A stretch of DNA of 64,000 bases from Candidatus Vecturithrix granuli (GCA_000739535.1 DF820464.1:242717-306716), one strand, 5' to 3'. Positions 1 to 56,974 are shown, counted from the first letter of the stretch. Made by a program: numbers and translations. The notes: generated from the letters alone by a model not told the origin.

Positions 1-112
1 CAGGGCTGTTAAGTTCTTGTAAAACATGCCCGTCTCGACTTCGCTCGACGTGCGGTATTCCGGTCATCGAGCGGAGTCGAGATGACAAACATCCGCAGAA
101 CTTAACAGCCCT
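1..112. repeat. Palindromic element, arms CAGGGCTGTTAAGTTCT, core 1
   Basis: Positions 1-17 are repeated in inverted orientation at 97-112. Inside lies a second palindrome with CTCGACTTCGCTCGA near 33 and TCGAGCGGAGTCGAG near 68. The same outer arms recur at 35102-35220 around a different core, and the same core recurs at 32488-32581 and, in variant form, inside the elements at 40460 and 56752. No reading frame is supported here. The element may extend left of the window. Confidence 0.8.
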
Positions 113-154
113 CCCCAAAGGAGAGGGGAGTCTTCACCCCTCTCCTTTGGGGAG
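111..154. repeat. Inverted repeat downstream of the sugar-binding protein gene
   Basis: An 18-base arm (CTCCCCAAAGGAGAGGGG) is followed after an 8-base loop by its exact complement. It abuts the element at 1-112 and lies beyond the stop of the minus-strand gene at 197, so it could fold in that transcript and act as a terminator. It lacks a clean T-run. Confidence 0.6.
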
Positions 155-196
155 GGGCCGGGGGTGGGGTAAATATTCCTGTCTGAGCAGATGATA

Positions 197-1216
197 TTAA
201 CGTTCGAACATCTTCTTCACAATTTCATCCGGCAGTTGTGAATTACACCAGAAACTATCAGGCAGGTCTGGTTTTACATACTGATCGAGATTTTCTGAGG
301 TAATGGTCGGAACCGGAATGATCGTTTCTTTTTCATAGGGTTTCCCGGTCAAGGCTGCCAATGCCACTTCCAGGGCTTTGGCGCTGCACCAGGTCGGCAT
401 ACTGGCAGCTATTGAGTCAAAATCGGGATACTTGCCGGAATCACGCAGTTCTTTCCAGATCTTCAGGAAGCCATTACCATCCTCACCAGTGACCGGCGGC
501 GGAACCAGTCCGCGTTCCAGATAGGCTTCAATTACCGCTTCCGACATCGCGCCGCCCTGGGACCAGACGCCATCCAGAGAAGGATAGGCAGCTAACAGCG
601 TTTCCATCGCGCGTTTGGCTTTGGCATAATCCCATTCAGCATAGACTTCTTGCACAATTTCAATCTCAGGATGTTGATCAAAGGCGCTCTTTGCGCCTTC
701 AAAACGTTCCGCTGACGTCGCTGTGCCTTTCACCCCGTTAAACGCCACGATCTTGCCTTTTCCATCCAACGCTTTGACCAGCCAATCTCCCTGAACGCGG
801 CCAAACTCTTTCTGGTCAACAATGATGTGCGCCGTAATGTCATCTGTATAGACCAGATTATCGAAATCAACAACCACGATGCCAGCCGCCATGGCTTTGC
901 TAACCACCGGAACCATCGCTTTCGGATTTACTGCGGTAATCAAGATCGCATCCACTTTTTTGGCGATTAAATCTTCAATATCAGCGATCTGCTTTGAAAT
1001 ATCCCCATCCGCTTCGGTCACGATCAGTTCTTTGACCTGATCGCTGTGCTGCGACGCGGCATATTTAGCTTCTTCAACCATCTGGACACGCCAGGAATTC
1101 CCTAAACTGAAATTGCTCAGACCGATCACAAATTGTTCTGCACCAGCATTCCCCGCTGCGACCAGTGCGCTGAACAAAAGCACAACAACGAATCCTTTCA
1201 AGATATTGCTTTTCAT
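197..1216 (-). CDS. Periplasmic sugar-binding protein of an ABC transporter (RbsB-like)
   Basis: This 339-residue protein begins with a signal peptide of about 26 residues ending near AGNAGA. It then shows the type I periplasmic-binding fold of ribose/galactose family binding proteins: FVIGLSNFSLGNSWRVQM at the mature N-terminus, ADGDISKQIADIEDLIAKKVDAILI, and the late segments GVWSQGGAMSEAVIEAYL and VTGEDGNGFL. It would capture a sugar in the periplasm and hand it to a membrane permease. The start has a good AAGGAGAA site 6 bases upstream. No ATPase or permease gene is visible; they would have to lie left of the window or elsewhere. It follows the cyclase, kinase and lyase genes on the same strand, so a sugar or sugar-derived acid is a reasonable ligand. 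The exact ligand cannot be read from sequence. Confidence 0.9.
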   Translation of the reverse strand: MKSNILKGFVVVLLFSALVAAGNAGAEQFVIGLSNFSLGNSWRVQMVEEAKYAASQHSDQVKELIVTEADGDISKQIADIEDLIAKKVDAILITAVNPKAMVPVVSKAMAAGIVVVDFDNLVYTDDITAHIIVDQKEFGRVQGDWLVKALDGKGKIVAFNGVKGTATSAERFEGAKSAFDQHPEIEIVQEVYAEWDYAKAKRAMETLLAAYPSLDGVWSQGGAMSEAVIEAYLERGLVPPPVTGEDGNGFLKIWKELRDSGKYPDFDSIAASMPTWCSAKALEVALAALTGKPYEKETIIPVPTITSENLDQYVKPDLPDSFWCNSQLPDEIVKKMFER

Positions 1217-1369
1217 GATATTCTCCTTCCATGTAAATTCCGTTCATAGTAGTCCGCTTCAGCCTGCCTGAAAAGACAGACAACCTTCTTGTGGACAATG
1301 TGGACAATATGGACATAAGCCGAAGCATTTTTTTCTCCCAGGCAATCCCCCCTTTCGCATAAGAAGCCG

Positions 1370-2038
1370 TCAGGCTAAGTATTTCACATCTGGCAGAGCA
1401 ACTGCTCTGCACGGCGCACCATCTCGTCCTTGCAATTTGAGCGGGAAGGCCCCGATCACAAAGGGTGTATTCGCAGGAAGTTGATCGAGATTCCGCAAGT
1501 TTTCAACAATCGGAATGCCTGCTCCTAAGATGAGATGATGTTCCGCGTTATCAGGCGTTTGAACCGGATCGATGGAAGTCGCATCTGTCATATAGGCTTT
1601 GATTTTCTTGCTGATCAACCATTCAGATAGATCTTTGGCTGGGGTCGGATAGAGTTCGTTGTAGTGTCTGGTTTCAGCGTAGCGTTGAATTCCGGTTTCC
1701 ATCACAAAAATCATGTTGTCGTCCAGATCAAAACCTGCGGCCTGAACTTCTTTCAGCGTGATTTCCTGGCCGTGCAATTCCTGCGTATAACGGAACAGTT
1801 TGGCCGTGCCAAATAAGCGGTCGAGCGGAATATCATCAATACAAGGGACATTATCCAAAAAATGTTTGGGGGCGTCAACATGCGTGCCGGTATGGGCAAT
1901 CATCGTAATTTTGGTGACATTGGCAACTTCTGAATTCGCCCGTTTGAGCCATTGAAAAACCGGGCGTTCAACCCCGGGATAGACCAGCATATCAGTGGTC
2001 AATGTGTATGAAAGATCGATAATACGGGTTTCGTTCAT
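1370..2038 (-). CDS. Cyclase-family metal-dependent hydrolase
   Basis: This 222-residue protein belongs to the kynurenine-formamidase-like cyclase family. The metal-binding signature HTGTHVDAPKHF is at about residues 49-60, after the typical opening RIIDLSYTLTTDMLVYPG. Family members are cytoplasmic, bind a divalent metal and hydrolyse formamides, lactones or related bonds. There is no signal peptide. The start is preceded by GGGAGAG. It sits between a PfkB kinase gene and a sugar-binding protein gene on the same strand, so hydrolysis of a sugar lactone or a related catabolic intermediate is a better guess than tryptophan degradation. That guess rests on context only. Confidence 0.85.
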   Translation of the reverse strand: MNETRIIDLSYTLTTDMLVYPGVERPVFQWLKRANSEVANVTKITMIAHTGTHVDAPKHFLDNVPCIDDIPLDRLFGTAKLFRYTQELHGQEITLKEVQAAGFDLDDNMIFVMETGIQRYAETRHYNELYPTPAKDLSEWLISKKIKAYMTDATSIDPVQTPDNAEHHLILGAGIPIVENLRNLDQLPANTPFVIGAFPLKLQGRDGAPCRAVALPDVKYLA

Positions 2039-2183
2039 AACTCTCCCTTCATGATCTATAAAGTTGAAGTCAGACTTCCTTTAACATCTCAGAAGTCCTA
2101 TAAAAAAATGAACTGTGAGAGCATGTATTCATCAAAATATTTTTCGTCAAGTATTACTTTGACTATCTTGATGATATATTTAT

Positions 2184-3164
2184 TCAAAAGCGTTTCTGGT
2201 TTGAACCCTCCAAAGATGAACGCGGGGTTTCCAGGAATGTTTGCATATCCTCTTTTGTCGGTTGTGCTCGTAGCGGCCCGACATCGCGACAGGTGAAGGC
2301 CGCAACAGCATTGGCAAACCTCCCTAATTGTTCAAATTCCATTTCTTCTAACATCCCGGCAATTACACCAGCGTCAAAGGCGTCGCCGGCCCCCACCGTA
2401 TCAACGACGTCAATCGGGCACGGCTCGATCCGTAATTCACGTGTACCCTGGCGTATATAACTGCCCCGCGCTCCCATTTTGACAGCGCACAGGTTCGGAA
2501 CGCGTGCGAGATACCGACAAAGGTTCTCAGGCTGTTCGCCCCATCCGAAGACGTTCATCTCCTCGTCCGTGATTTCAAGCAGGTCAACATATTCTTCAAT
2601 CGTATGTTTGACAATCGCTTTGGCGATGTCCGGTCTCCACAGCGGAGGACGGTAATTGACATCGTAGGAGACCAGAATATGATGCGCTTTGGCAAACTTG
2701 AGGAGATCAAAAGAAACCGCTAAAGCCTGCTGACTGATGGCCTGGCTGATGCCGCTGAGGTGCAGCACCTTCACTTCTCGCAGAAATTCCCAGTCAATAT
2801 CTTCGGAAGAGATCCAACAGGCTGCTGAGTTTTGGCGATAATAGGTGAACACATGTTTCCCGGCCTGATAGGAAATGAAATATAAGCCCGTGCGATGTTC
2901 CTGATCCACTCTGACCTGCGAAGTGTTTACGCCTGCATCCTGCCAGAGCTTGAGAAAACTTTGACCAAAGCCATCATCTCCCACTCGGCTGATATATGCG
3001 GATTGATGACCTAATTTACAGATCGCCAACGCCAGATTCGAGGTATCGCCGCCCCAGGTTTTTGAAAGCGGCACATCATCGGCAATCGAACATCCTCCTG
3101 GTGGGTAAATTCCAATCAACGGCTCGCCAAAAGACGCCACTTCAACAGTTGTGGCATGTTGCAT
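2184..3164 (-). CDS. PfkB-family sugar kinase (2-keto-3-deoxygluconate kinase or fructokinase type)
   Basis: The 326-residue product has both ribokinase-family signatures: the N-terminal glycine motif in SKTWGGDTSNLALAICKLG (about residues 34-52) and the C-terminal DTVGAGDAFDAGVIAG with the catalytic aspartate (about residues 255-270). It phosphorylates a sugar or keto-sugar acid with ATP in the cytoplasm. AGGAG lies upstream of the ATG. The lyase gene is upstream and the cyclase gene downstream on the same strand. A kinase beside a DapA-type lyase suits a 2-keto-3-deoxy acid route, but fructokinase activity cannot be excluded. Its C-terminal tail runs past the family core by a few polar residues. 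Confidence 0.88.
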   Translation of the reverse strand: MQHATTVEVASFGEPLIGIYPPGGCSIADDVPLSKTWGGDTSNLALAICKLGHQSAYISRVGDDGFGQSFLKLWQDAGVNTSQVRVDQEHRTGLYFISYQAGKHVFTYYRQNSAACWISSEDIDWEFLREVKVLHLSGISQAISQQALAVSFDLLKFAKAHHILVSYDVNYRPPLWRPDIAKAIVKHTIEEYVDLLEITDEEMNVFGWGEQPENLCRYLARVPNLCAVKMGARGSYIRQGTRELRIEPCPIDVVDTVGAGDAFDAGVIAGMLEEMEFEQLGRFANAVAAFTCRDVGPLRAQPTKEDMQTFLETPRSSLEGSNQKRF

Positions 3165-3181
3165 TCTTTTTCTCCTGTATT

Positions 3182-3240
3182 GTTCGTAGTCGCCGCTTCA
3201 GTGGCGTGATCATCACGCCGCTGAAGCGGCGACTACGAAC
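3182..3240. repeat. Near-perfect 59-base palindrome, CGCTTCAG family
   Basis: The left half (GTTCGTAGTCGCCGCTTCAG and onward) is complementary to the right half with one mismatch. It lies in the 90-base gap between the lyase and kinase genes, which read in the same direction. Relatives with the AGT-NN-CGCTTCAGCG / CGCTAAAGCG-NN-ACTA pattern occur at 10657, 32436 and 40835. Weaker forms with different inner sequence occur near 27350 and 27580. Confidence 0.8.
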
Positions 3241-3254
3241 CTGGTATGCCTGTT

Positions 3255-4154
3255 TCATAACAGATTCAGGGCTTGTAGCGCATTTTTAACTTTTTCTGTT
3301 GTCGCATCATCAATGTCAAGAAGCGGGCTTAACGGATGGCCGGCGTCAATGCCTCGCATCCTGAGAATGGCGTGCATAATCGGCACGGTGGGGGCCATTT
3401 TGGTAATGGCGCGAATTCTTAGAATCAACCGCTGTCCTTCCATTGCAGCGGTGCGATCCCCGGTGCAATAATTTTTATACATGTTTGCCAGGATTTCCGG
3501 AAAGATATTACCCATGCCGCACACCATGCCTGTGGCCCCGGCGTCAAAGGCGCCCATAAAAATCGCTTCCGTGCCAATAATCACATTAAAGTCGGGATAG
3601 TCCGCCACAGCATCCTGAAACAAAAAGAAATTGACCAGATCAAAAGAACTGTCTTTACACCCTCTCAGCCCGTAATCTGCCAGGCGTTTCAATAATTTAG
3701 GAGTAATCACATTTTGGGAATAGTGCGCATTATGATAGATATAGACCGGGAATTCTTCTTCATTCACGGCATCGATCAAACTAACAAAATGCCGAAAGAG
3801 ATTCTCTTCCGGCAAATTCGGAGCATAATACGGAGAAATCGCTCCAACGCCCGCTGCACCAGCCGCTTTGGCATGTTTGGCAAGTTCGATCATTGATTTC
3901 GTGCCGGCCGCGCCCACATGCGCGACTACCGGGACTTTGCTGTTAACTTCATCCAGGATAATTTCCAGTGTTTTCTGCCGTTCCGGGATCGACATTAAAG
4001 GACCGCAGCCATAGGTGCCAATCGGATAGTAGCCGTTCACATGGGGTAAGGTAAATTTGACAATTTCGCGTATCCCGCGTTCATAGACTTCCCCATCCTG
4101 GGTGAAGGATGATAGGAGAGGCGGAATGATGCCAATAAACTCTTGTGCTTTCAT
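3255..4154 (-). CDS. DapA/N-acetylneuraminate-lyase family aldolase
   Basis: This 299-residue class I (beta/alpha)8 lyase shows the pyruvate-binding loop region YYPIGTYGCGPLMS (about residues 41-54), the conserved tyrosine in FPVYIYHNAHYSQN, and the Schiff-base lysine in LRGCKDSS (about residues 140-147). Family members cleave or condense 2-keto acids with release or uptake of pyruvate. The usual glycine-threonine-threonine-glutamate loop of DHDPS reads GTYG here, which points to a catabolic keto-acid lyase rather than lysine biosynthesis. GGAGGG lies 13 bases before the ATG. It heads the minus-strand cluster that continues into the kinase and cyclase genes, divergent from the Ldh-type dehydrogenase. 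Confidence 0.88.
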   Translation of the reverse strand: MKAQEFIGIIPPLLSSFTQDGEVYERGIREIVKFTLPHVNGYYPIGTYGCGPLMSIPERQKTLEIILDEVNSKVPVVAHVGAAGTKSMIELAKHAKAAGAAGVGAISPYYAPNLPEENLFRHFVSLIDAVNEEEFPVYIYHNAHYSQNVITPKLLKRLADYGLRGCKDSSFDLVNFFLFQDAVADYPDFNVIIGTEAIFMGAFDAGATGMVCGMGNIFPEILANMYKNYCTGDRTAAMEGQRLILRIRAITKMAPTVPIMHAILRMRGIDAGHPLSPLLDIDDATTEKVKNALQALNLL

Positions 4155-4355
4155 ACGTGTTGCGTACCCTCCGTAATAATTGTTAGGAACTGGAGTTTTT
4201 TGGAAGACTTCAGGAGCGTCAAAACTCCAGATTATCCGATTTCGCCGGATGGCAAAGACGAGCTTGCCGCTCCTAAAAAATGTCAGTTCGTTTGATTTCA
4301 GACACAGGACTCTGTGTCAGCATGAGAAGAGAAGTCAAGAAGAAATTCTTTTAAT

Positions 4356-4488
4356 AACTTGACAATGTTTCATGAGTTGAACGATCCTTCAGCCTTACAT
4401 TTTGTCGAAAGAGGTGTTCGTGGGTTCAATAAGGACACTGCGAACTACGGGAATGCCTGTAAAATCTGAAATGTAACATTGTCGAGTT
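4356..4488. promoter_or_regulatory. Candidate operator pair in the divergent lyase/dehydrogenase promoter region
   Basis: AACTTGACAATGTT at 4356-4369 is mirrored, with one mismatch, by AACATTGTCGAGTT at 4475-4488. A related ACATT-TT-GTCGA stretch lies between them near 4395. The core CTTGACAATGT recurs in inverted form at 27556-27566 upstream of the TRAP binding-protein gene. The position between divergent catabolic genes suits a shared regulator, but part of the match could simply be a -35-like TTGACA. The rest of the 350-base gap (4155-4504) contains a smaller inverted repeat at 4186-4276 and no gene. Confidence 0.4.
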
Positions 4489-4504
4489 TATAAAGGAGTA
4501 CTGT

Positions 4505-5602
4505 ATGCCAGCAGAACAGGTCAAATTTAAACGAGAACCATTACAAATGTTTTGTCAGCAGGTCTTTCAAAAATTGGGCGTATCGGAAGAGGATGCCAGA
4601 ATTGTGGCGGATGTGCTCGTCACCGCAGATGCGATGGATATTCCCTCGCACGGCGTCATTCGCACACGACGCTATGTCGAGGGCTTGAAATCCGGGCTGA
4701 TGCTTCCGAATGCCGCAATAGAAACCCTGGTTGATTCCCCTTCTTCGCTTGTGGTGAACGCTCATGGCGCCATGGGCGCGCCCGTGAGCGCGAAAACCAT
4801 GCGCAGTATCATTCACAAAGCCAAAACCAACGGCTCAGCCTTCGGCTGCGTGCGCGATTCCAATCATTTTGGCATTGCTGGCTATTACGCTCGCATGGCC
4901 TTGCAAGAAGACATGATCGGGATTGCTATGACGAACACCGGAACGCTGGGCGTGCCAACCTTTGGCCGTCAGACCATGTATGGCACGAATCCGATTGCCT
5001 TTGCAGCCCCGGCCGGAAAAAAGCCGCCGTTTGTGCTGGATATGTCCACTACAGTAGTCACTAGAGGAAAATTGGAGTTATACGAACGCATGGGGAAAGA
5101 ACTGCCGCCGGGGTGGGCGGTGGATAAAACCGGGAAATCCGCGAATCACGCCGGGCCTGTCTTAAAAGATATGTTAGCCCATCTGGGCGGAGGAATCCTA
5201 CCGCTCGGTGGGTTCGGCAAGGAACATAGCGGACATAAAGGTTACGGCCTGGCCGTGATGGTGGACATCCTTTCCGCTGTGCTGTGCGGCGCGCCCTTTG
5301 GGAAAAATGTGTTTGATACCCCGGAATCTTACGCCCGCGTCAGTCATTTCTTCGGCGCGATCAAAATCAGTTGTTTCCGCGATCCGCAGGAATTCCGACA
5401 GGATATGGATCTCATGCTGCAAGACCTGAATGATTGTCCGGTAGCAGAAGGGGAAGATCGGGTCTGGTTCGCCGGACAGCCTGAATTTGAACAGGAAGAG
5501 GCCAGCCGGCAGCAAGGGATCCGGGTATTACAGAAAACATACAATGATTTATGTCAATTAGGGCAGGAATATGCGGTACAGGTCCCGCCGACGTTGACAT
5601 AG
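4505..5602 (+). CDS. Malate/L-lactate dehydrogenase-family (Ldh2) oxidoreductase
   Basis: This 365-residue NAD(P)-dependent dehydrogenase belongs to the YiaK/ComC/YlbC family, which is unrelated to classical lactate dehydrogenase. Diagnostic segments are ADAMDIPSHGVIRTRRYVEG (about residues 40-59, with the catalytic histidine), GCVRDSNHFGIAGYY, GTNPIAFAAP and GGFGKEHSGHKGYGLAVMVD. The family reduces 2-keto acids or oxidises 2-hydroxy acids in the cytoplasm. AAAGGAG lies 6 bases before the ATG. It is transcribed divergently from the DapA-like gene and converges on tctA, with a strong hairpin between them. Its substrate is probably the hydroxy or keto acid handled by the neighbouring lyase and kinase, but this is inferred. 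Confidence 0.9.
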   Translation: MPAEQVKFKREPLQMFCQQVFQKLGVSEEDARIVADVLVTADAMDIPSHGVIRTRRYVEGLKSGLMLPNAAIETLVDSPSSLVVNAHGAMGAPVSAKTMRSIIHKAKTNGSAFGCVRDSNHFGIAGYYARMALQEDMIGIAMTNTGTLGVPTFGRQTMYGTNPIAFAAPAGKKPPFVLDMSTTVVTRGKLELYERMGKELPPGWAVDKTGKSANHAGPVLKDMLAHLGGGILPLGGFGKEHSGHKGYGLAVMVDILSAVLCGAPFGKNVFDTPESYARVSHFFGAIKISCFRDPQEFRQDMDLMLQDLNDCPVAEGEDRVWFAGQPEFEQEEASRQQGIRVLQKTYNDLCQLGQEYAVQVPPTLT

Positions 5603-5621
5603 ATTTTTTTGAAGTGAAATG

Positions 5622-5656
5622 AAAAAACCGGGTTTCTTCGAGAAACCCGGTTTTTT
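5622..5656. terminator. Bidirectional intrinsic terminator, ACCGGGTTT hairpin family
   Basis: A-run, ACCGGGTTTC, short loop, GAAACCCGGT, T-run. It lies between the convergent stops of the dehydrogenase (5602) and tctA (5666), where a two-way terminator is expected. Seven similar hairpins occur in the window. Confidence 0.85.
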
Positions 5657-5665
5657 AGAGGCATG

Positions 5666-7153: not shown

Positions 7154-7157
7154 AGTA

Positions 7158-7652: not shown

Positions 7653-7673
7653 CCGGATCTGCCTCCTTTGAAA

Positions 7674-7738
7674 ATGTAGCGCGAAACTCCAGTTTCGCGT
7701 ATCGTTGACAGCCGCGAAACTGGAGTTTCGCGGTACAT
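7674..7738. repeat. Palindromic element, GCGAAACTCC family
   Basis: ATGTAGCGCGAAACTCC is mirrored by GGAGTTTCGCGGTACAT, with inner pairing of CAGTTTCGCG and CGCGAAACTG. It sits between tctB and tctC. A close relative is at 42849-42915 and shorter relatives are near 27303 and 49564. Confidence 0.8.
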
Positions 7739-7781
7739 CTGATTTTCATCATGCTGATGGACGAGCGCCTCCGATGGAAAG

Positions 7782-7814
7782 AAAAACCGAGTTTTTTGAA
7801 AAAACTCGGTTTTT
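7782..7814. terminator. Terminator-type hairpin between tctC and tctB
   Basis: AAAAACCGAGTTTTTT, a minimal loop, then AAAAAACTCGGTTTTT. It lies 19 bases past the tctC stop. It belongs to the same family as the hairpin at 5622-5656 and would cut most transcription after tctC, leaving the binding protein in excess over the permease. Confidence 0.75.
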
Positions 7815-7832
7815 CGAGTTGCGTTCCGTTCC

Positions 7833-8972: not shown

Positions 8973-8994
8973 GAGTACATATAAATCTCTGAGA

Positions 8995-9244: not shown

Positions 9245-9429
9245 GGTAGTGGTTAAATAATAAGTGATGACGCATGCGTCACGATGCGGTCAGGAGTGCG
9301 ACGAGGTCGTCGCAACGGCATCAGCGATGCCGCGCCTGTCAGGGCGTTGCCCTGAGGCGATGACCGCATCGCCCTCCTGTCTGTTGAGCAGTGTTCCGGG
9401 TCCCCACCACTTACAATTTAACCACTGCC
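9245..9429. repeat. MITE-like element, arms GGTAGTGGTTAAAT, core 2
   Basis: Terminal arms GGTAGTGGTTAAAT...TAAGTGAT and CACTTAC-A-ATTTAACCACTGCC bound a 185-base unit. Copies with the same arms but another core are at 40460-40573 and 56752-56864. The core here (CAGGAGTGCGACG, GGTCGTCGCA) matches the core of the element at 35102-35220. It reads open on the plus strand and would lengthen the downstream gene by 60 codons, which I reject as repeat-derived. Confidence 0.8.
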
Positions 9430-28750: not shown

Positions 28751-28838
28751 ATGAAACTACACGGATTGTATGTAGGGAGGATTGCATAGCGATACACCTC
28801 AAATCTATCCTCCCTACATGAAATCCATGTAGTTTTAT
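28751..28838. repeat. Palindromic element, GAAACTACA-GGATT family
   Basis: ATGAAACTACACGGATT and TGTAGGGAGGAT are mirrored by ATCCTCCCTACA and AATCCATGTAGTTTTAT. It separates the kinase and pdxA2 genes. A second copy is at 46771-46882. Confidence 0.8.
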
Positions 28839-32435: not shown

Positions 32436-32487
32436 GTTCGTAGTTGCCGCTTCAGCGGCGTCATACAACGCTAAAGCGTTTACTACA
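32436..32487. repeat. Palindromic element, CGCTTCAGCG family
   Basis: ACGTTCGTAGTTGCCGCTTCAGCG pairs imperfectly with CGCTAAAGCGTTTACTAC. It is followed directly by another palindrome. Confidence 0.7.
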
Positions 32488-32581
32488 GCAATCCTAAATC
32501 ATTTGTAACATGTCACTTCGACTCCGCTCAGTGACCGGACGGCTGTCGAGCGGAGTCGAGACACAACTAATTTAGGATCGC
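32488..32581. repeat. Palindromic element, arms GCAATCCTAAAT, core 1
   Basis: GCAATCCTAAAT and ATTTAGGATCGC form the outer arms; the inside carries TCGACTCCGCTC and GAGCGGAGTCGA, the core also seen at 1-112. It lies between the PrpR-like gene and the htrA stop. Confidence 0.75.
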
Positions 32582-32598
32582 TATACAAGCCTTTCGGC

Positions 32599-35074: not shown

Positions 35075-35303
35075 ACCCCCTCAATCCCCCCGGCAAGCGG
35101 GCAGGGCTGTTAAGTTCTCTCAGGAGTGTGACGTGGTCGTCGCAGCGGCATTTCTGATGCGACGACCACGTCGCACTCCTGGCTGCATGGTGAAAAATTC
35201 TTGAGAACTTCACAGCCCTGCCGCAAGCGGGGGGAAGTCCAGAGAACGGGCATACCGCCAGCTTCCCCTCGCTTGCGGGGGGATAAAGGGGGGAAATACG
35301 GAA
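35075..35303. repeat. Triple-nested palindrome, including arms CAGGGCTGTTAAGTTCTC with core 2
   Basis: The outermost layer pairs CCCCGGCAAGCGGG-type sequence near 35085 with GCTTGCGGGGGGATAAAG near 35271. Next come CAGGGCTGTTAAGTTCTC (35102) and GAGAACTTCACAGCCCTG (to 35220). Innermost, AGGAGTGTGACGTGGTCGTC (35122) pairs with GACGACCACGTCGCACTCCT (to 35180). The middle layer matches 1-112 and the innermost layer matches the core of 9245-9429. The 410-base gap 34922-35331 contains no gene. Confidence 0.8.
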
Positions 35304-40459: not shown

Positions 40460-40573
40460 GGTAGTGGTTAAATGGTAAGTGATACGTTCCCTGAGCGAAG
40501 TCGAAGGGAACGGTGATCGGCTCGTTTCGACTTCGCTCAACGAGCGGACATCACTTACTATTTAACCACTGCC
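40460..40573. repeat. MITE-like element, arms GGTAGTGGTTAAAT, core 1-type
   Basis: GGTAGTGGTTAAAT-GGTAAGTGAT at the left and ATCACTTAC-T-ATTTAACCACTGCC at the right, enclosing GAGCGAAGTCGAA and TTCGACTTCGCTC. Same arms as 9245-9429 and 56752-56864. A GC hairpin (ACCGGGCGTCA ... TGATGCCCGGT) just before it, at 40377-40408, may end the binding-protein transcript. Confidence 0.8.
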
Positions 40574-42848: not shown

Positions 42849-42915
42849 CATGTACCGCGAAACTCCGGTTTCGCGGCTGTCAATGATACGCGAAATCGGA
42901 GTTTCGCGGTACATG
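42849..42915. repeat. Palindromic element, GCGAAACTCC family
   Basis: CATGTACCGCGAAACTCC pairs with GGAGTTTCGCGGTACATG, plus an inner GGTTTCGCG/CGCGAAAT pairing. Close relative of 7674-7738. Confidence 0.8.
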
Positions 42916-46770: not shown

Positions 46771-46882
46771 GTGAAACTACAAGGATTTTGTGTAGGAAGG
46801 ATTCTCAGGGGCAGAGTTCGGTGTCATGCCGACCAATTCGCCGCCAGGAATCCTCCCTACACAAAATCCTTGTAGTTTCATC
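46771..46882. repeat. Palindromic element, GAAACTACA-GGATT family
   Basis: GTGAAACTACAAGGATTTTG and TGTAGG-AGGATTC are mirrored by GAATCCTCCCTACA and CAAAATCCTTGTAGTTTCA. Sister of 28751-28838. It ends at the stop of the MBL-fold gene. Confidence 0.85.
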
Positions 46883-47918: not shown

Positions 47919-47943
47919 ACAGTCTTCCTCCTTAATTTTGATG

Positions 47944-48248
47944 ACACGCCATCGCCCATCAGAGGGCGGAGGTGCTCCATACGCACCACGCTCACGATTT
48001 TCGTCCTGGAAGGACGACTGACACTAGCCCACCGTTTCAACGGTGGGGGAGGCATGACAGTGCATTGAGTCCCGGAGGGACGACTGACGGCAAAACTCAG
48101 TCGTCCCTCCGGGACGCTCTCTCGAGGGATCTCCCTTCCCCACCGTTGAAACGGTGGGCTATTCTCACCTGTCCCTCCGGGACAAAGAACGTGAACTTGC
48201 TGCGCATGGGATGGACTCTCCGCTGCCCTGATGGAGAGACGACATGTC
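47944..48248. repeat. Large multi-layer palindrome of about 300 bases
   Basis: The layers, from outside in, are CCATCAGAGGGCGGAGG with its partner near 48220, CATACGCACCACGCTCACG with its partner near 48190, TAGCCCACCGTTTCAACGGTGGGG (48025) with its complement near 48140, and a centre built on GTCCCGGAGGGACGACTGA. It fills the gap between the MBL-fold gene and the esterase gene, with no gene inside. Plus- and minus-strand frames here are shadows. Confidence 0.8.
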
Positions 48249-49739: not shown

Positions 49740-50270
49740 TTACTCATCATACAGTTCCATGCCATAGGTTTTGGGTAACTGATCTTCAAAAAGCCAACTT
49801 GCTCCACGAGTGTAGTCTTCGGCCTGTAACCAATGTAACCGCGAAAGCCCTTCCCAATGTTGAAGCGTTGGCGCAACCCCTGTCTTTGTCACTTCAAAAA
49901 TTCGGATAATCTGCTGCTCTTTCCAGATTGCATTCGTCGCAGCAAGATCGCTGTACACAACGACATACGTGCGAACTGTCTGAAGATCGCTTCGTAATCC
50001 TCTGAGAGCAGCCCTCATCGCCCGTTCACGCGCGGCAGTTTCATGCGCATACTGTGGATCAGCAAATCGAGAGAGGCGAATTCCGGCCTCAGGCGCGCCG
50101 CTGAATTGAAACACTCCCACGCGGCTTGATTGAAGACTCAAGGCATGTCCCACGCCCAGAATGATGATGATTGTCAGAATCAACGTTGCGATTGCATGGT
50201 GCTCAATCGCCATGCGACTACGTTCAAATATGTGTAAATCGTGTACATGCTGAAATGAATGTACGTGCAT
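49740..50270 (-). CDS. Unknown single-pass membrane protein under a sigma-54 promoter
   Basis: From the ATG at 50270 (GGAGG eight bases upstream) the product has 176 residues. A His-rich cytoplasmic N-terminus (HVHSFQHVHDLHIFERSR, about 1-18) leads to a hydrophobic helix (AIATLILTIIIILGVGHAL, about 25-45), then a soluble C-terminal domain containing ARERAMRAALRGLRSDLQ, TYVVVYSDLAATN and a Trp-rich tail (QHWEGLSRLHWLQAEDYTRG). I do not recognise a family. The alternation suggests a periplasmic sensor or partner of an envelope process. Its only strong context clue is the sigma-54 site 130 bases upstream and the adjacent sigma-54 response regulator gene. Confidence 0.75.
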   Translation of the reverse strand: MHVHSFQHVHDLHIFERSRMAIEHHAIATLILTIIIILGVGHALSLQSSRVGVFQFSGAPEAGIRLSRFADPQYAHETAARERAMRAALRGLRSDLQTVRTYVVVYSDLAATNAIWKEQQIIRIFEVTKTGVAPTLQHWEGLSRLHWLQAEDYTRGASWLFEDQLPKTYGMELYDE

Positions 50271-50394
50271 ATTCATCACCTCCTTATCCACTCAAGGCTT
50301 TGAGTCTTCGTGACTTCGTGGCGTGAATAATTCAGGTTATGGGTGTGAACAGCATTTTTTCGCCGCAGGCGATTCACGCCTGATAAATACATTA

Positions 50395-50411
50395 AGCAAA
50401 AACGATGCCAG
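50395..50411 (-). promoter_or_regulatory. Sigma-54 promoter of the unknown gene at 49740-50270
   Basis: On the minus strand it reads TGGCAT-CGTTT-TTGC, an exact match to the invariant bases and spacing of a -24/-12 promoter. The predicted transcript has a leader of about 115 bases. Confidence 0.75.
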
Positions 50412-50488
50412 AAGCTATTTTGAACAATAAATTATTGTATTTATTGGAGTTGTACATTGAGAACACGATCCCGATCACAGATAAAATG

Positions 50489-50596
50489 AGACAGAAATGT
50501 CTGAGATCTGGTGCGAAAAATACAGGGAACTTCTTGAAAAATAAGGAGAAACCTGCGTATAAGTCAAAAATGGCGCATAAGACAGCATTGGCGCAT
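50489..50596. promoter_or_regulatory. Candidate upstream activator sites
   Basis: AGACAGAAATGTCT (50489-50502) is a near-perfect inverted repeat, and TGGCGCAT occurs twice at 50571 and 50589, 18 bases apart, with TGCGTAT and ACGCAT variants beside them. They lie 80-200 bases upstream of the sigma-54 promoter at 50395-50411. A 68-codon frame at 50405-50611 covers the same stretch and I do not treat it as a gene. Confidence 0.4.
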
Positions 50597-50612
50597 TGTT
50601 TTACGCATTGAT

Positions 50613-52355
50613 TCAGCTTATCCCGTATTTTTGCATTTTTCGGTTCAGGGTGCGGCGAGGGAGGCCGAGGGTTTGGGCGGTCTTGCCGCGATGTCCGTGA
50701 TTGCGCTGTAAGGTGCTGAGGATGTAGTCTTTCTCGCAGATTTCCAGCACCTCGTGGAGTTTCGCTGTAGTGTTGAGAGGGAAAAGCGGTCTCGTCAGGG
50801 GCGCGTCGAGTTGGGTATTACCGATGAATTCGAGTTTCTGATGGGCCAGATAGCGTTGGAGTTCATTCTGGAGTTCGCGTACGTTGCCAGGCCAATTGTA
50901 TGTGCATAACATATTGTGAATATGACCGGGCAGCGAAGCATAAGGAGTCTCTTTGTCGTATTGTTCAAGGAAATACTCGATCAACAGGGGAATATCGTCT
51001 TTCCGATTGCGTAACGGCGGCAGTTCGATCACGATCACGCGGATGCGCCAGTAAAAATCTTCGCGGATGACGCCCTCTTGCAGCAAAAGTTTCAAATCTT
51101 TATTGGCGGCCGCAATAATGCGTATATCCGCTTTTTGACTGTGTGTGTCGCCCAGAGGTGTATATTCGTGCTCTTGCAGTGCGCGTAAGAGTTTGACCTG
51201 TAAGAACGCGGGCAATTCGCCAATTTCATCCAGAAACAGCGTGCCTTTGTGCGCCTGAGCCAGGTAGCCAGGTTGATCCATCGTCGCACTGGTGAACGTT
51301 CCCCTGCGATGTCCGAAAAATTCGCGTTCGAATAAATTTTCAGGAATGGCGCCGCAATTGACAGCCACAAAATGTTCCTTCTTGCGCGCGCTCAATTCAT
51401 GGATTGTGCGGGCTGCCAGTTCTTTACCACTGCCGGATTCTCCGCAGATCACCACATTCGCCTCTGAAGCTGCGGCATTCACAATCGCCTGATAGACCGT
51501 TTGCATGGCCTGGCTTTTGCCGATCATGCCGCCCAATTTATAGCGTTCCCCCAGGCTGGAGCGTAAGGAGACATTTTCCTCTTGCAGCAAGGCTTTTTCA
51601 GCTTCCAACTGCTTATGCCGGCTCAGGTCGCGCATGGCAACGATTCTGATATTCCGGCCGTGATACGGCATGGTTCGCCCGTGAAATTCGACTGGAAAGC
51701 TCGATCCGTCTCGTCGAACGCCGGCGGCTTCATAGGGGCCATCTTCTGCCAGACGGAGGTTCTCGGCCACGATCATCCGTGATTCCGGCGTCACAAATTC
51801 CAGCACATGACGGCCCAGCACCTCTGTCCGTTGATACCCGAACATCTGCTCCATGGTCTGATTGATCTCTAAGATTTTGCCCTGATCGTGCATCAAAATG
51901 CCTTCAAACGTGGCTTCTGAGAGGGTCCGAAAGCGTTCACTTTGTTCCTCAAGCTGCTGTTGCAGCCGGCGCATTGCCAGGTGCGCGTTGATGCGCGCCA
52001 GTACTTCCTGATAATCCACCGGTTTCGTGATATAGTCCACTCCGCCGACCTCAAAGCCTTTGATTTTTTCGATCAGGTCGGAAATGCCGGTCAGAAAAAT
52101 AACCGGAATCTCGCGCAGCGACTCCTGCGCCTTCAAGCGTTGACAGGTCTCAAAGCCATCCATCTGCGGCATCAGCACATCGAGCAGGATTAGATCGGGA
52201 AGGGCCTGCTGCGCCCGTTGGATCGCTGTTTCACCGCTTTGAGCCACAATAATGCGAAAGCCGGATTGTTCTAAAAAGTCAATCAAGGCTTTCAGATTGT
52301 CAGGAATATCATCAACAAGTAAAATGGTCGCTTGCTCTGAGTTTTTAGAGGGCAT
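50613..52355 (-). CDS. Response regulator with PAS and sigma-54 AAA+ domains, altered GAFTGA loop
   Basis: The 580-residue protein has a CheY receiver domain (ILLVDDIPDN, phospho-Asp in LILLDVLMPQMDG, about 10-125), a PAS domain (about 145-250), a sigma-54 type AAA+ domain (GESGSGKE, LFLDEIGELP, about 275-510) and a Fis-type helix-turn-helix (GKTAQTLGLPRRTLNRKM) at the end. The sigma-54 contact loop reads GTFTSA instead of GAFTGA, so the conserved glycine is a serine. No histidine kinase gene is adjacent. GGGAG precedes the ATG. The neighbouring gene has a sigma-54 promoter, which makes it the obvious regulator despite the odd loop. Confidence 0.9.
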   Translation of the reverse strand: MPSKNSEQATILLVDDIPDNLKALIDFLEQSGFRIIVAQSGETAIQRAQQALPDLILLDVLMPQMDGFETCQRLKAQESLREIPVIFLTGISDLIEKIKGFEVGGVDYITKPVDYQEVLARINAHLAMRRLQQQLEEQSERFRTLSEATFEGILMHDQGKILEINQTMEQMFGYQRTEVLGRHVLEFVTPESRMIVAENLRLAEDGPYEAAGVRRDGSSFPVEFHGRTMPYHGRNIRIVAMRDLSRHKQLEAEKALLQEENVSLRSSLGERYKLGGMIGKSQAMQTVYQAIVNAAASEANVVICGESGSGKELAARTIHELSARKKEHFVAVNCGAIPENLFEREFFGHRRGTFTSATMDQPGYLAQAHKGTLFLDEIGELPAFLQVKLLRALQEHEYTPLGDTHSQKADIRIIAAANKDLKLLLQEGVIREDFYWRIRVIVIELPPLRNRKDDIPLLIEYFLEQYDKETPYASLPGHIHNMLCTYNWPGNVRELQNELQRYLAHQKLEFIGNTQLDAPLTRPLFPLNTTAKLHEVLEICEKDYILSTLQRNHGHRGKTAQTLGLPRRTLNRKMQKYGIS

Positions 52356-52489
52356 CTTTCATAACTCCCTGACCCCCAAACGTTTTTCAAGGAAATTATT
52401 TATAGTTGTAAGATAAGGTGTGGGCGTGCTTTTTTCAACAAAAAAATCATCTTATTGCAAGAATCTCTGCCCGGGCGCTGTTATTTCTC

Positions 52490-54232
52490 TCACAGGATGA
52501 AAGCCATGAACAGAATGAGCACAAGAAAGGAAATGACCATCTGAATCGAAACGCTCAGGGAACGATCCTGGATGTTCTCCAGCTTGAGGCAAAGCGCAAA
52601 TAGCCCGCGGGCCAGGGAATTATACAAGCTATCCACGCTGAAATAGCTTACAATACGCCTCTGTTTTGAAACTTCAGTCTGAGGATGATGGAAGCCAAAG
52701 ACTCCCATTCGCAATAAAAAGGCATACAGAGCAACACCGATCCCCAGACTCACAAACGCTTCAGCGAGATGCGCAAGGGTCCAGAGACGAGGCTGCGGCG
52801 CAAACCGGCTCAACATTACCTTCAGCACAAAGCCCGGGAATATCCCTACCATGAAGGACCCTAAAGAGAGGAAGAGCATGGGAATATACATTGACGCTGG
52901 AACCTCTTGCACGTTCAAGAGCACAGAATTTGGCGGCCCGAAGAAGGTATGCCTGACCAGTTTAAGGAAGGAGGCGCAGGTTCCGGCTGAGGTCAAAATA
53001 AAAATGATCTCTAAAGGCAGATTGCCTTCCAGACCCGCAAAAATAATGCCTTTACTGGCGTATCCGCTGGTGAGTGGCACGCCTGAGATAGAGAGTGCCG
53101 CGATCAGGCACGTGAGCGTTGTCACTGGCATCTTGCGCCATAAGCCGCCTAACATCTCAATTTTGCGCGTTCCGGTTCTGAAAATCACTGCTCCGACCGC
53201 CAAAAACAACAGTCCCTTGAAGATGGCATGACTCAGTATGTGCAGCATTCCTCCGGCCAGGCCATATTTTCCGATTCCTATGCCTAACAGGATATACCCT
53301 ATTTGACTGACGCTGTGGTAGGCTAACAGCTTTTTTAAATCCTTTTGAAGCAGGGCCAGGGAAACGCCGATGACCATCGAGAGAACGCCTGTACCCATCA
53401 CCAGCAAAGCGGGACTGACCAGCCATTGGTCTATGTTAGCTGCTCCTTGCGATAAACTTCTCAGGGATTCAAAGGAGAACACGCGGCTGCCTTCTGATGT
53501 TGTTCCGAAAAAATCGGGAGAAAAAAAGGCGCGTATCAGACCGTACGCGCCCACTTTGATCATGACGCCCGAAAGAAGAGCGCTAATCGGGGAAGGCGCG
53601 GCAGGATGGGCGTCAGGCAGCCAGGTATGAAACGGAAACGCGCCTGCTTTCAGCAAACAGCCGATGGAAAAGCTGATGCCCGCCAGACGCCCCAGGTATT
53701 CCTTGTCCAGCGGGACGATGAAGAGCACCAGGATGGCGGTCAGAATGAACAGCCCGCCCACAAGCATCATGACGATATATTTGTAGCCCGCGTCTAAAGC
53801 TGCCTTCTCCCGCGAGTGGATGATGAGAAAGTACGCGGAGATTGATACGGTTTCGAAAAAAATATAAAACCCCAGAAGTCCCTGAGAGAAGATAAGCCCC
53901 AACAGGCTGCCAAAATTCAGGGTGAGCAGAACGTAATATTTCAGGCGATGATCTGTGACATAGTCCGCAGAATAGATCATCACAAGCAGATACAACGCGG
54001 AGACCAGTACGCCAAACCCCAGGCTCAGTCTATCCACGCAGAAATATAGCTCGAAATTGCCCATCAGAGGAAAAGAACGGAATTCAAGCATTTTATCCAG
54101 AGCAATCTGCGGATAGACGCTGAGTAAGCATAGCAGCGCTGTCAGAGGAAATACACAGGGGATCATAGAGATAAGGTTGAAACGAAGAGATGTTAATTTT
54201 GGCTCTAAAGGAGTTTGTTTCATATTAAGCAT
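52490..54232 (-). CDS. MrpD/NuoM-like proton-conducting antiporter subunit (second copy)
   Basis: The 580-residue membrane protein has about 14 helices with FVFETVSISAYFLIIHS-like and AGAFPFHTWLPDAHPAAPSP segments, ISALLSGVMIKVGAYGLIR and LLAYHSVSQIGYILLG, all typical of the Mrp/Mbh/complex I proton-channel subunits. Its long C-terminal amphipathic stretch (about 490-580) resembles the lateral helix of NuoL-type subunits. In the absence of a full MrpA it may supply that function. Two possible starts (54232 and 54223) share an AAAGGGGAG site. It is last in the mrp operon, beyond a large palindrome. Confidence 0.85.
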   Translation of the reverse strand: MLNMKQTPLEPKLTSLRFNLISMIPCVFPLTALLCLLSVYPQIALDKMLEFRSFPLMGNFELYFCVDRLSLGFGVLVSALYLLVMIYSADYVTDHRLKYYVLLTLNFGSLLGLIFSQGLLGFYIFFETVSISAYFLIIHSREKAALDAGYKYIVMMLVGGLFILTAILVLFIVPLDKEYLGRLAGISFSIGCLLKAGAFPFHTWLPDAHPAAPSPISALLSGVMIKVGAYGLIRAFFSPDFFGTTSEGSRVFSFESLRSLSQGAANIDQWLVSPALLVMGTGVLSMVIGVSLALLQKDLKKLLAYHSVSQIGYILLGIGIGKYGLAGGMLHILSHAIFKGLLFLAVGAVIFRTGTRKIEMLGGLWRKMPVTTLTCLIAALSISGVPLTSGYASKGIIFAGLEGNLPLEIIFILTSAGTCASFLKLVRHTFFGPPNSVLLNVQEVPASMYIPMLFLSLGSFMVGIFPGFVLKVMLSRFAPQPRLWTLAHLAEAFVSLGIGVALYAFLLRMGVFGFHHPQTEVSKQRRIVSYFSVDSLYNSLARGLFALCLKLENIQDRSLSVSIQMVISFLVLILFMAFIL

Positions 54233-54319
54233 ATTCTCCCCTTTCCTCGCTTCTATGGGAGAGGATCCGGGGTGGAGAAACGTTTACCACATTCCCTATG
54301 GTTGCTATTTAGTTCATCT

Positions 54320-54501
54320 TTTCGCCGTAGGCGATACAGTATTGTAGCAACGAGGAAACCCCCATCCTTTTTTCGCCGTAGGCGATCTACAACTGTTGCG
54401 CCGAAGGACAATCATTGGCTTTTTGTAGATCGCCTACGGCGAATTCAAAGCAAGAAGGGCACTATTTGTTGTTACAATACTGTATCGCCTACGGCGAAAA
54501 A
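54320..54501. repeat. Two-layer palindrome, CGCCGTAGGCGAT family
   Basis: TTCGCCGTAGGCGATACAGT pairs with ACTGTATCGCCTACGGCGAA, and inside it TTCGCCGTAGGCGATCTACA pairs with TGTAGATCGCCTACGGCGAA. It lies between the two proton-channel genes. A single related arm is near 50361. Confidence 0.85.
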
Positions 54502-54521
54502 GCCTGGTAAATAATTACTTC

Positions 54522-55964
54522 TTACGGCACGGCGGTAACGCTCAGTATATTTTCTCCTGCCCCGGGAAATACAACCACGACAAAAATCCCTGATACCAGA
54601 AGAATCAGGGAAAGATAAACAAGAGCAGAACATTTCTTTTTGCTGATAATATACCCCTCTTCGCCTTGAAAGAACACACCGATGCACCTCAGAAAATACG
54701 CACCTGTGATGATACTGCTGAAAAATATGATCACGGCAATGAAAGGATGACCACTTTTAGCGGAAGCAAGGCCGATCATCAGCTTACTGAAAAATCCTCC
54801 GGCCGGGGGAATGCCTATGAGAGAGAGGGAAGCCAGGATAAAGATGGCAGTCACCGCCGGCATTTCTTTGGCGACGATGCCTAACTCTGAGATTTTTCTG
54901 CGCCCGGTTTGCTCGATCACCGCACCTGCACAGAGAAACAGGCAGCTTTTGGCAAACGCATGATTCACGGTATGGAATAACGCGCCGCTTGCGCCGCTTG
55001 CGGTTCCCAGGCCGATCCCGATCAGAATATAGCCGATCTGGTTAATGCTGGAATACGCCAGCAAGCGTTTCAGGTCGCTCTGAACTAAAGCCATAATCGC
55101 TCCAAAAATCGCCGTGACTGCGCCGGTATAAACCAGAAGCGCGTACAGGCTCTCTATGAAAGGACAAAGCCTGAACATCTGGACGGTTCTGAAAAAGGCA
55201 TAGATTCCAACTTTGATGACAATGCCCGACAGCAGGGCGCTAACCGGAGAAGGGGCGATGGAATGGGCGTCAGGAAGCCAGGTGTGGAGCGGCGCCATGG
55301 CGCATTTTATGCCAAACCCGATCATAAATAAGGCCAGTGTCAAGATGAGCGCCCGGGGGGATGTGGAAAAAAACTCAGGAATTTTCTCGCTGATCTCAAT
55401 CATATTGAGTGTGCCGATATAGCGGTATAAGACGCCAATCCCAAACAGAAAGAAGATCAGCCCGATGCTGCTGATGAGCAGGTAGTTGATGCCTGCCAGG
55501 AACGACCCCTGACTGCCATAGTGCGCTACCAGGATATAGGAAGCGATGGACAACACCTCCATGAACACAAAGAGGTTGAAAATATCTCTGGAAAGAAAGG
55601 CCCCTGAGATGGCGCTCATCATGATTAACAGCAGCGCATAAAACTTTGGCTCGTATTTTCCCTCGGCCAGAGCGTACAGGAGCACCAGCACCCCGAGAAG
55701 GTTGTTCAGCAGCACCATAAAGATGGTCAATCGATCGACCAGGAGCGAAATGCCGATAATCTGATCCCAGGATCCCAGGGTATAGACGACGCTTTCGCCG
55801 CGCAAAATTTGAGGGGTCAGGATCAGGGCCAGCCCAAACGCCGCCGCCAGGCTAAGCATCGCCAGATGTCCGCAGAAAGCTCTCCACGGCGTGAAATCCA
55901 GCAGCGTGATGACTACCGCCGTGAACATCGGAATCACGATAATGAAAATCGCTGCATTCGTCAT
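54522..55964 (-). CDS. mrpD: Mrp antiporter subunit D (MnhD)
   Basis: The 480-residue protein has about 13 helices with FVFMEVLSIASYILVAHYG, KCAMAPLHTWLPDAHSIAPSPVSALLSG-type channel segment (glutamate and lysine of the proton path), LLAYSSINQIGYILIGIGLG and SLIGIPPAGGFFSKLMIG. It is a proton-conducting subunit of the multi-subunit Na+/H+ antiporter. Its ATG follows the mrpC stop without a gap. Confidence 0.9.
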   Translation of the reverse strand: MTNAAIFIIVIPMFTAVVITLLDFTPWRAFCGHLAMLSLAAAFGLALILTPQILRGESVVYTLGSWDQIIGISLLVDRLTIFMVLLNNLLGVLVLLYALAEGKYEPKFYALLLIMMSAISGAFLSRDIFNLFVFMEVLSIASYILVAHYGSQGSFLAGINYLLISSIGLIFFLFGIGVLYRYIGTLNMIEISEKIPEFFSTSPRALILTLALFMIGFGIKCAMAPLHTWLPDAHSIAPSPVSALLSGIVIKVGIYAFFRTVQMFRLCPFIESLYALLVYTGAVTAIFGAIMALVQSDLKRLLAYSSINQIGYILIGIGLGTASGASGALFHTVNHAFAKSCLFLCAGAVIEQTGRRKISELGIVAKEMPAVTAIFILASLSLIGIPPAGGFFSKLMIGLASAKSGHPFIAVIIFFSSIITGAYFLRCIGVFFQGEEGYIISKKKCSALVYLSLILLVSGIFVVVVFPGAGENILSVTAVP

Positions 55965-56291
55965 CTACAAGTGCCTTTTTAATTCTTCAACATCCAGGGT
56001 GTGATAATTCTCATAGATTTTTACCGCGATAGAGAGCGCCAGGGCTGTCACGCAGATTCCGATCACGATGGCGGTCAGCATAAGCGCCTGAGGAACAGGA
56101 TCAACCACATTTTCCATTCCATGCTCCAGGATCGGAGCGTTAGCGTTTGAACGATAGCCAACGCTGATGAAATACAGGATTACACCCCCCTCCAGAATAT
56201 ACAGCCCGATGATCTTCTTGATCAGATTTCTCTTCGCCATCAGGCCGTAGAGTCCGATTAACATCAGGACAATGCTGGTATAGGTTGCCAT
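55965..56291 (-). CDS. mrpC: Mrp antiporter subunit C (NuoK-like)
   Basis: The 108-residue three-helix protein has GLYGLMAKRNLIKKIIGLYI, a glutamate-adjacent membrane segment and DPVPQALMLTAIVIGICVTA, matching MrpC/MnhC and NuoK. It is one base after the mrpB stop and directly before mrpD, with GAAGGGGA upstream. Confidence 0.92.
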   Translation of the reverse strand: MATYTSIVLMLIGLYGLMAKRNLIKKIIGLYILEGGVILYFISVGYRSNANAPILEHGMENVVDPVPQALMLTAIVIGICVTALALSIAVKIYENYHTLDVEELKRHL

Positions 56292-56292
56292 G

Positions 56293-56715
56293 TCAGTCCC
56301 CTTCCTCCCCGGCCAGCGAATAGAAAATGATACTTATTGCGGCCCCGACTTTCAGCCCGATGGCCAGATTTAAAAAGAGAATAAAGCCCGAACCGCCAAA
56401 TCGGCCGCCTTCTCCCTGGGGCAGGAAATCTTTGAGGAAATGATACCCAAAGAGAATGCCTCCCAGGCCAATGATCATAAAGACGAGCGGGCCGATACTT
56501 TCCATCAGGCCAAGGATATTTTTCTTGAACCGTTCCTCCGTTTTGGAAATTCCCTGTGACAGGGAAAGCAGGATAATTGCCGATCCAATGACAACCCCTC
56601 CTTGAAATCCTCCACCCGGCGAAAGATGGCCATAAGCAACCACATATAAGCCGAAGAGGAGGATGAACGGAAACAACTTTCGGGTCATGGTTCTGATGAT
56701 GGTTGATTCTTGCAT
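56293..56715 (-). CDS. mrpB: Mrp antiporter subunit B, C-terminal domain type (MnhB)
   Basis: The 140-residue protein has four helices with LFGLYVVAYGHLSPGGGFQGGVVIGSA and a GSGFILFLNLAIGLKVGAA segment, the hallmark of MrpB. It starts the B-C-D block. Two repeats (56752-56864 and 56888-56974) separate it from the PII-like gene upstream. Confidence 0.92.
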   Translation of the reverse strand: MQESTIIRTMTRKLFPFILLFGLYVVAYGHLSPGGGFQGGVVIGSAIILLSLSQGISKTEERFKKNILGLMESIGPLVFMIIGLGGILFGYHFLKDFLPQGEGGRFGGSGFILFLNLAIGLKVGAAISIIFYSLAGEEGD

Positions 56716-56751
56716 GGCTTATTTCGACTCCTCCTTACCTAAATATTTTTC

Positions 56752-56864
56752 GGTAGTGGTTAAATGGGAAGTGATGCCCGCTCGTTGAGCGAAGTCGAAA
56801 CGAGCCGCTCATTGTTCCCTTCGACTTCGCTCAGGGAACGCATCACTTCCCATTTAACCATTAC
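56752..56864. repeat. MITE-like element, arms GGTAGTGGTTAAAT, inside the mrp operon
   Basis: GGTAGTGGTTAAAT-GGGAAGTGAT and ATCACTTCCC-ATTTAACCATTACC enclose GAGCGAAGTCGAA and TTCGACTTCGCTC. TATTTTTC occurs on both flanks, a possible 8-base target duplication. Third copy of this family. Confidence 0.8.
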
Positions 56865-56887
56865 CTATTTTTCGTATATGAATCTGC

Positions 56888-56974
56888 TTAACCCACCCCT
56901 GGCCCCTCCCAGGAGGGGAGTTCACGGCTGCACCACAATACACCCATACCTGTCAGGGGTGAGGGGTGGGTTAA
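56888..56974. repeat. Inverted repeat AACCCACCCCT ... AGGGGTGGGTT
   Basis: TTAACCCACCCCTGGCCCC pairs with GGGGTGAGGGGTGGGTTAA around a short inner pairing. It lies next to the MITE-like element between mrpB and the PII-like gene. Confidence 0.75.

Follow-up and report, generated by a model that had tools for sequence, protein, structure and literature searches.

Nested intergenic palindromes of Candidatus Vecturithrix granuli as probable composites of two transposition systems

The analyzed stretch (the window) comprises 64,000 nucleotides of Candidatus Vecturithrix granuli (GCA_000739535.1 DF820464.1:242717-306716), of which positions 1 to 56,974 are shown. The gaps between its long reading frames hold six nested palindromes, in which one of three outer arm types (T1, T2 and T3) encloses one of two inner cores (core 1 and core 2). 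An earlier note, made from the sequence alone, had described these six arm-core combinations, and all of them were present; the T3 element was extended from 32488-32581 to 32484-32585 by the outermost bases of its TA-rich ends, and the last element was extended to 56865. The features are collected in Table 1.

The six elements are tied together by shared words. The T1 elements at 1-112 and 35102-35220 have the 17-nt arm word CAGGGCTGTTAAGTTCT in common, and the T2 elements at 9245, 40460 and 56752 share the 14-nt arm word GGTAGTGGTTAAAT. The 12-nt core-1 loop TCGACTTCGCTC is common to the elements at 1-112, 40460 and 56752 and appears as the variant TCGACTCCGCTC at 32484, while the 13-nt core-2 word CAGGAGTGCGACG is common to those at 9245 and 35102. 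Random 112-mers from the window share a mean of 7 nt and a maximum of 11 nt (200 trials); the sharing among the six elements is far above chance. Genome-wide, a T1 13-mer occurred 128 times versus 3 for its reversed control, and a T2 16-mer, with at most one mismatch, 219 times versus 0 for the control. A codon-like sequence as origin of the cores was ruled out in the window, where the elements lie between long reading frames and form inverted pairs. An Rfam search of the six elements gave no match, and no occurrence of the arm and loop sequences was found in the literature searched.

Arms and cores were cross-tabulated in 2.59 Mb of the genome (8.38 Mb in 21 contigs, G000), that is, 2.46 Mb taken as 20-kb stretches plus small loci. 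The table depends on the arm threshold: the strict criterion, requiring both arms, gave 38 T1, 49 T2 and 11 T3 elements, and looser criteria gave 54, 59 and 15. Under the strict criterion, T1 (CAGGGCTGTTAAGTTCT) carries core 1 in 24 elements, CCCCGCWWGCGGGG pairs in 6, GACG (core 2) pairs in 3, an E pair in 1 (3-4 under the looser search) and a few others. T2 (GGTAGTGG) carries core 1 in 37 and GACG in 10-11, besides E and one coreless 57-bp copy, and T3 (TATAGCAATCCTAAATCATTTGT) carries core 1 in 10 as well as one GTCATTGCGAGG-like core. Additional arms surround known cores, namely T5 (TAGAGTTGTTGCGCAATAA) with GACG, T7 (GAAGCTGTTTTAAAAGT) with E, and the T6 palindromes. As a result, core 1 was found within T1, T2 and T3 arms, GACG within T1, T2 and T5, and core E with T1, T2, T7 and T6 as well as free; T1 holds at least four core families and T2 at least three. 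There is no fixed arm-core pairing, so the modularity proposed in the earlier note is upheld, and fixed pairs, which it had named as the outcome to look for against its model, are ruled out by the table.

The cores called interchangeable do share a loop or words, but each is a family. In core 1, only the 12-nt loop is invariant, and the stems vary with the arm family (CGTC/GTCATC in T1, GTTCCCT/GCTCGTT in T2, GTCACT/TGTC in T3), whereas core 2 is a single hairpin pair in T1 and a set of four hairpins in T2. Because the core-1 stems are specific to the arm family, each chimera would have arisen rarely and then been copied. Exchange is occasional and amplification follows, so that most copies are plain amplifications of a few chimeras. 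The suggestion that these are not simple copies of one MITE (miniature inverted-repeat transposable element) holds insofar as several arms share several cores; it fails insofar as the arms are MITE ends and most copies are plain amplifications. In a separate T1 subfamily with CCCCGCTTGCGGGG pairs (C11:223092 in L022, C20:136158 and C17:117540), the interior palindrome is of the same type as the insertion target.

The arms have the properties of transposon ends. T1 (98-123 bp), most T2 (113-185 bp) and T3 (102 bp) are non-coding, bear terminal inverted repeats and fall in the 70-300 bp range of MITEs, and the target-site duplications (TSDs) have a constant length per family. Exact 8-bp direct repeats stand on both sides of T2 in 30 of 48 elements, and flank words of at least 6 are shared in 34 of the 48 versus about 2 after the right flanks were shuffled. 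T1 flanks share words of 9-13 bp in 17/37 elements versus 1.2 shuffled. As read from the flanks, T7 has a 3-bp TNA duplication in seven of nine copies and T4 (GTGAGTTCGGGATAAG) a 7-bp duplication in three of four; T3 has no long duplication, and a TA site is possible. The T1 insertion sites are CCCC-N9-GGGG palindromes, here and in Larkinella and Dysgonomonas, where the palindrome type of 109-156 also flanks T1 copies. Their mean stem is 4.8 versus 3.6 shuffled (T2, 3.6 versus 3.7), and the target palindrome CCCCAAAGGAGAGGG flanks the element at 1-112 on both sides (left flank from L350).

T1 arms occur in Bacteroidota, Desulfamplus and other Desulfobacterota, Ignavibacteria, cyanobacteria and others. 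In Pontibacter (L151) and Saprospiraceae (L192) they terminate complete insertion sequences (ISs) of 1152 and 1290 bp, whose open reading frames match the ISAs1 model NF033564 (133, 96, 85 and 126 bits); judged by these identities, the T1 arm is the terminal repeat of ISAs1-family ISs of other bacteria. The T5 arms match, and nearly equal, the inverted repeats AATAGAGTTGTTGCGAAATAA of a resident DDE element (L108), assigned to the IS5 type by a sub-threshold NCBIfam match and Pfam DDE_Tnp_4. Autonomous partners sharing the ends were thus found for T1 in other bacteria (L192, L151) and for T5 in this genome (L108); for T2, T3, T4 and T7, no autonomous transposon with matching ends was identified. 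None of ten PF01609 matches proved to be a single resident DDE element with T1, T2 or T3 ends, and two T1 copies on C10 with 3 kb between them are separate MITEs with host genes in the interval. At C13:8928-10508, two T2 copies lie 1581 bp apart around an assembly gap and could belong to an autonomous T2 element. The 16-nt ISAs1 end AGGGCTGTTAAGTTCT is identical over several phyla (L143-L243) and frequently lies some 100 bp from the end of a contig, which would be expected of multicopy elements that break assemblies.

Several elements were caught inside one another. An E-carrying T2 lies at the center of a T6 palindrome at C14:182841 with an 8-bp TSD (AACAAATC), and an uninterrupted copy of this palindrome exists at C18:789571; a single E hairpin sits flush at a T6 center at C18:147555. 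Additionally, a coreless T2 lies within the end of a T1 (C19:168357, TSD AGGACTGT), an E-carrying T7 inside a T3-core1 element (C13:38902, TSD TTA), a T2-core1 inside a T6 palindrome (C11:92315, TSD GGATTTCG) and a T4 in a T2-core1 (C20:147006). The T2 arm was absent from all three same-order relatives searched for empty sites, and paralogous sites were therefore used for the comparison. Nested copies with duplications, together with uninterrupted paralogous sites, indicate that the elements do land in each other, as the earlier note had proposed; its other suggestion, a process that extends palindromes, is not needed.

The cores are inverted pairs of hairpins that resemble repetitive extragenic palindromic (REP) sequences to different degrees. 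Core E consists of GGAG plus the hairpin TGCGAAAGCtctGCTTTCGC in inverted pairs, 51 of which were found in the 2.46 Mb, 27 of them without any outer repeat, and its REPs stand on both sides of a gene for a REP-associated tyrosine transposase (RAYT; L040, NF047646, 94.5 bits). With a tetranucleotide tag, inverted pairs and a RAYT gene flanked by the same REPs, core E is a REP of the kind that forms paired units (REPINs). The GTAGcgcgaaac pairs at 7674 and 42849 belong to a GTAG/GTAC-tagged family and lie free, and related GTACCGCGAACC REPs flank a Y1 RAYT-like gene (L042), which scores 72.2 bits on NF047646, under the cut-off of 80. T4 carries two-hairpin repeats resembling those arrayed beside Y1 transposases. 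In core 1, the constant loop of 12 nt (TCGACTYCGCTC) is found on 30 different paired stems, and a stem of at least 4 bp forms in 203 of 231 hairpins versus 38 with shuffled partners. Core 1 has no constant tetranucleotide tag outside the variable stem and directly flanks none of the 12 Y1 genes examined. CGTC-tagged REPs are defined by a CGTC/TGTC tag, an 8-9 bp stem starting with AT and a 4-5 nt loop; some core-1 copies begin with TGTCATC or CGTC, but with stems of 4-8 bp and a 12-nt loop the likeness is a resemblance only. The core-1 loop also makes up head-to-tail 15-bp arrays, (TCGACTCCGCTCCCT)n, at C18:1-60 and 166-260 (L043), C18:374900 (L061) and C13:104459 (L088), one of them at a contig start.

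The same T1 arms carry different local REP-like pairs elsewhere. In Larkinella punicea, they enclose the inverted pair GCCCCCAACCCCCTAAAGGGGGC, which is locally abundant (82 + 77 matches); of the 30 loci of this pair (CCCCCTAAAGGGGG) that were read, 8 (4 elements) lie within T1 arms and 22 outside. In Dysgonomonas hofstadii, 11 of the 16 copies of GTCATCCTGAGTGAAACGAAGGATCT (GTCATCCTGAG..) are in T1 arms, 3 are in other arms (GAGGCTGTCCCAAAAGT) and 2 are free. Thirteen T1 MITEs were taken from public genomes, and the interiors of 12 gave fold z-scores of -2.3 to -11.4 against mononucleotide shuffles.

We consider it probable (about 0.78) that the nested palindromes are composites of two independent transposition systems, with DDE-moved MITEs outside and REP pairs inside. 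The outer layer would be a MITE whose two terminal inverted repeats are recognized by a DDE transposase, an ISAs1-family enzyme for T1 and probably the resident IS5-type enzyme for T5, and which moves as double-stranded DNA and leaves target duplications. The inner layer would be a REPIN-like unit of two inverted REP-type hairpins, moved in the case of core E by the RAYT (HUH tyrosine) transposase. REP pairs would enter MITEs, MITEs would enter palindromes and one another, and the chimera would then be amplified as a unit via its outer ends. The enzymes would presumably act in trans on these MITE and REP copies, and RAYT activity, not template switching or gene conversion, would place the REP pairs in MITEs. 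Insertion best fits the entry of E into T6, and recombination fits C19:48759.

At that locus, an E pair stands beside core 1 within T1, which looks more like recombination of two T1 elements than like insertion, and this is one of several points that weigh against a composite of two transposition systems. No transposase was identified for core 1 or T2, and core-1 pairs lie mostly within arms (104 of 116 under loose arm criteria), so its present mobility may be only that of MITE cargo. The NF033564 search found no ISAs1 transposase in the gapped assembly of the own genome; T1 is either an orphan here or has its IS within an assembly gap. Furthermore, a single core variant dominates each arm family, which implies few independent assembly events. 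A rival explanation is core swapping without transposition: template switching or gene conversion between replicating hairpins would exchange the loop segment between arms that remain paired. The element at C19:48759, half T1-E and half T1-core1 sequence, is as expected of a crossover, only the arms are common to T1-E and T1-core1, and the core-1 loop stays constant despite its many stems. However, E and GTAG pairs also exist free, the E hairpin occupies a T6 center of which uninterrupted copies are known, and the T2 and T7 nestings have exact target duplications; we regard such swapping as rather unlikely.

Somewhat less likely still, the MITEs may have formed around REPs, with transposase ends arising or landing to either side of REP pairs, since T1 targets CCCC-N9-GGGG palindromes and nearby ends would often enclose REPs. 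The longer stems at T1 sites agree with this, as do the Larkinella T1 and the CCCCGCWWGCGGGG type here, in which the core is of the target palindrome type. In contrast, core 1, GACG and the Dysgonomonas core are not T1 target palindromes, and T2, which shows no preference for palindromes, nevertheless contains the same cores. It is very improbable that these are ordinary MITE families with self-complementary interiors, similar through convergence or a common structural RNA, even though each arm family has mostly one core variant and the elements are intergenic, with strong folding expected of any transcript. The same 12-nt loops and 13-nt GGAGTGCGACG words recur across arm families, core E is found free and flanking RAYT, and T1 arms hold different REP-like pairs in other bacteria; convergence is already contradicted by the shared cores.

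Table 1. Nested palindromes, their parts and related repeats in the window.
Position	Strand	Feature	Remark
1..112		T1 MITE, ISAs1-type terminal repeats CAGGGCTGTTAAGTTCT	core-1 REP-like pair inside
1..17	+	T1 left arm / terminal inverted repeat	identical to ISAs1-family IS ends in L192, L151
31..50	+	core-1 hairpin, stem CGTC	constant loop TCGACTTCGCTC
63..86	-	inverted core-1 hairpin, stem GTCATC	loop GAGCGGAGTCGA
97..112	-	T1 right arm	
109..156		palindrome CCCTCCCC...GGGGAGGG	site type targeted by T1 insertion
9245..9429		T2 MITE	four-hairpin GACG-type (core 2) cargo; target duplication no longer present
32484..32585		T3 MITE, ends of TATAG..CTATA type	core-1 pair with stems GTCACT and TGTC
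35102..35220		T1 MITE with GACG-type (core 2) REP pair	within CCCCGGCAAGCGGGG palindrome; flanks CGGCAAGCGGG / CCGCAAGCGGG
40460..40573		T2 MITE with core-1 pair	stems CGTTCCCT and GCTCGTT
56752..56865		T2 MITE, core-1 pair reversed in orientation	exact 8-bp target duplication TATTTTTC
28752..28837		T6 palindrome (TGAAACTACA..TGTAGTTT)	family is landing site of T2 and E elements elsewhere
46772..46880		T6 palindrome, 109-bp form	without REP core
7674..7738		GTAG/GTAC-tagged REP pair (CGCGAAACTccAGTTTCGCG)	free, outside arms
42849..42915		GTAC-tagged REP pair	same family as 7674..7738; free

Other repeats were also observed. A double nested palindrome, TTTTCGCCGTAGGCGAT..., at 54319-54500 of the window represents a further family (TCGCCTACGGCGA), and terminator-like hairpins (AAAAACCGGGTTTCTTCAAGAAACCCGGTTTTT type) whose stems vary are very abundant genome-wide (for example, window 7780-7820). 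Two matches to Rfam Acido-Lenti-1 (RF01687) form one inverted pair at window 47977-48209, and a further match (L033:2279-2323) is located some 420 bp from a Y1 transposase gene that has two-hairpin repeat arrays on its flanks; this 'sRNA' family may perhaps be a DNA repeat linked to IS200-type transposases.

Modular palindromic repeats that are mosaics of few modules, as here, are known from BOX elements of Streptococcus and bacterial interspersed mosaic elements; to our knowledge, neither has been described as two stacked mobile systems, one carrying the other. The elements are like ISAs1 and IS5 MITEs in being short and non-coding, with target duplications and terminal inverted repeats common to an autonomous element, but their interior is a REP-type hairpin pair that varies between and within genomes and not a deleted transposase gene. 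With REPINs and REP-RAYT systems (PMC3116915, PMC2817692) they share inverted REP pairs, a RAYT flanked by its own REPs and a tetranucleotide before the hairpin (GGAG, GTAG/GTAC); unlike in those systems, MITEs whose ends are unrelated also carry REP pairs here, and core 1 has no constant tag or RAYT. REP dimers inside palindromes were noted previously: in Anabaena variabilis (GTAG-15) and Halothiobacillus neapolitanus (CGTC-1), they lie regularly inside a longer inverted repeat, and neither genome yielded a palindrome free of REPs (Di Nocera et al. 2013, PMC3733652). Those genomes have one palindrome per REP family, with no target duplication or transposase assigned (PMC3733652), whereas the arms in this genome are the ends of transposons and have duplications, several cores are shared among several arms, and some palindromes lack a core. 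The transposon explanation was not part of the 2013 account.

REPs are among the commonest short bacterial repeats. The spread of those that lack a dedicated enzyme is an open question, which was left open for CGTC REPs (PMC3733652). Cargo status in MITEs is a concrete spreading route for REPs without an enzyme of their own, and the two-layer build explains mosaic intergenic palindromes that resemble palindrome growth. We would give even odds to a general two-layer economy, in which palindromes serve REP pairs moved by RAYTs and MITEs moved by DDE transposases as reciprocal landing sites, and in which the ISAs1-type MITEs of many phyla routinely take up whichever REP pair abounds in their host. 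The 16-nt ISAs1 end offers a testable marker for a cross-phylum survey of composite palindromes. If such an economy exists, composite palindromes would be built repeatedly from local parts, and REP pairs would gain a second spreading route.

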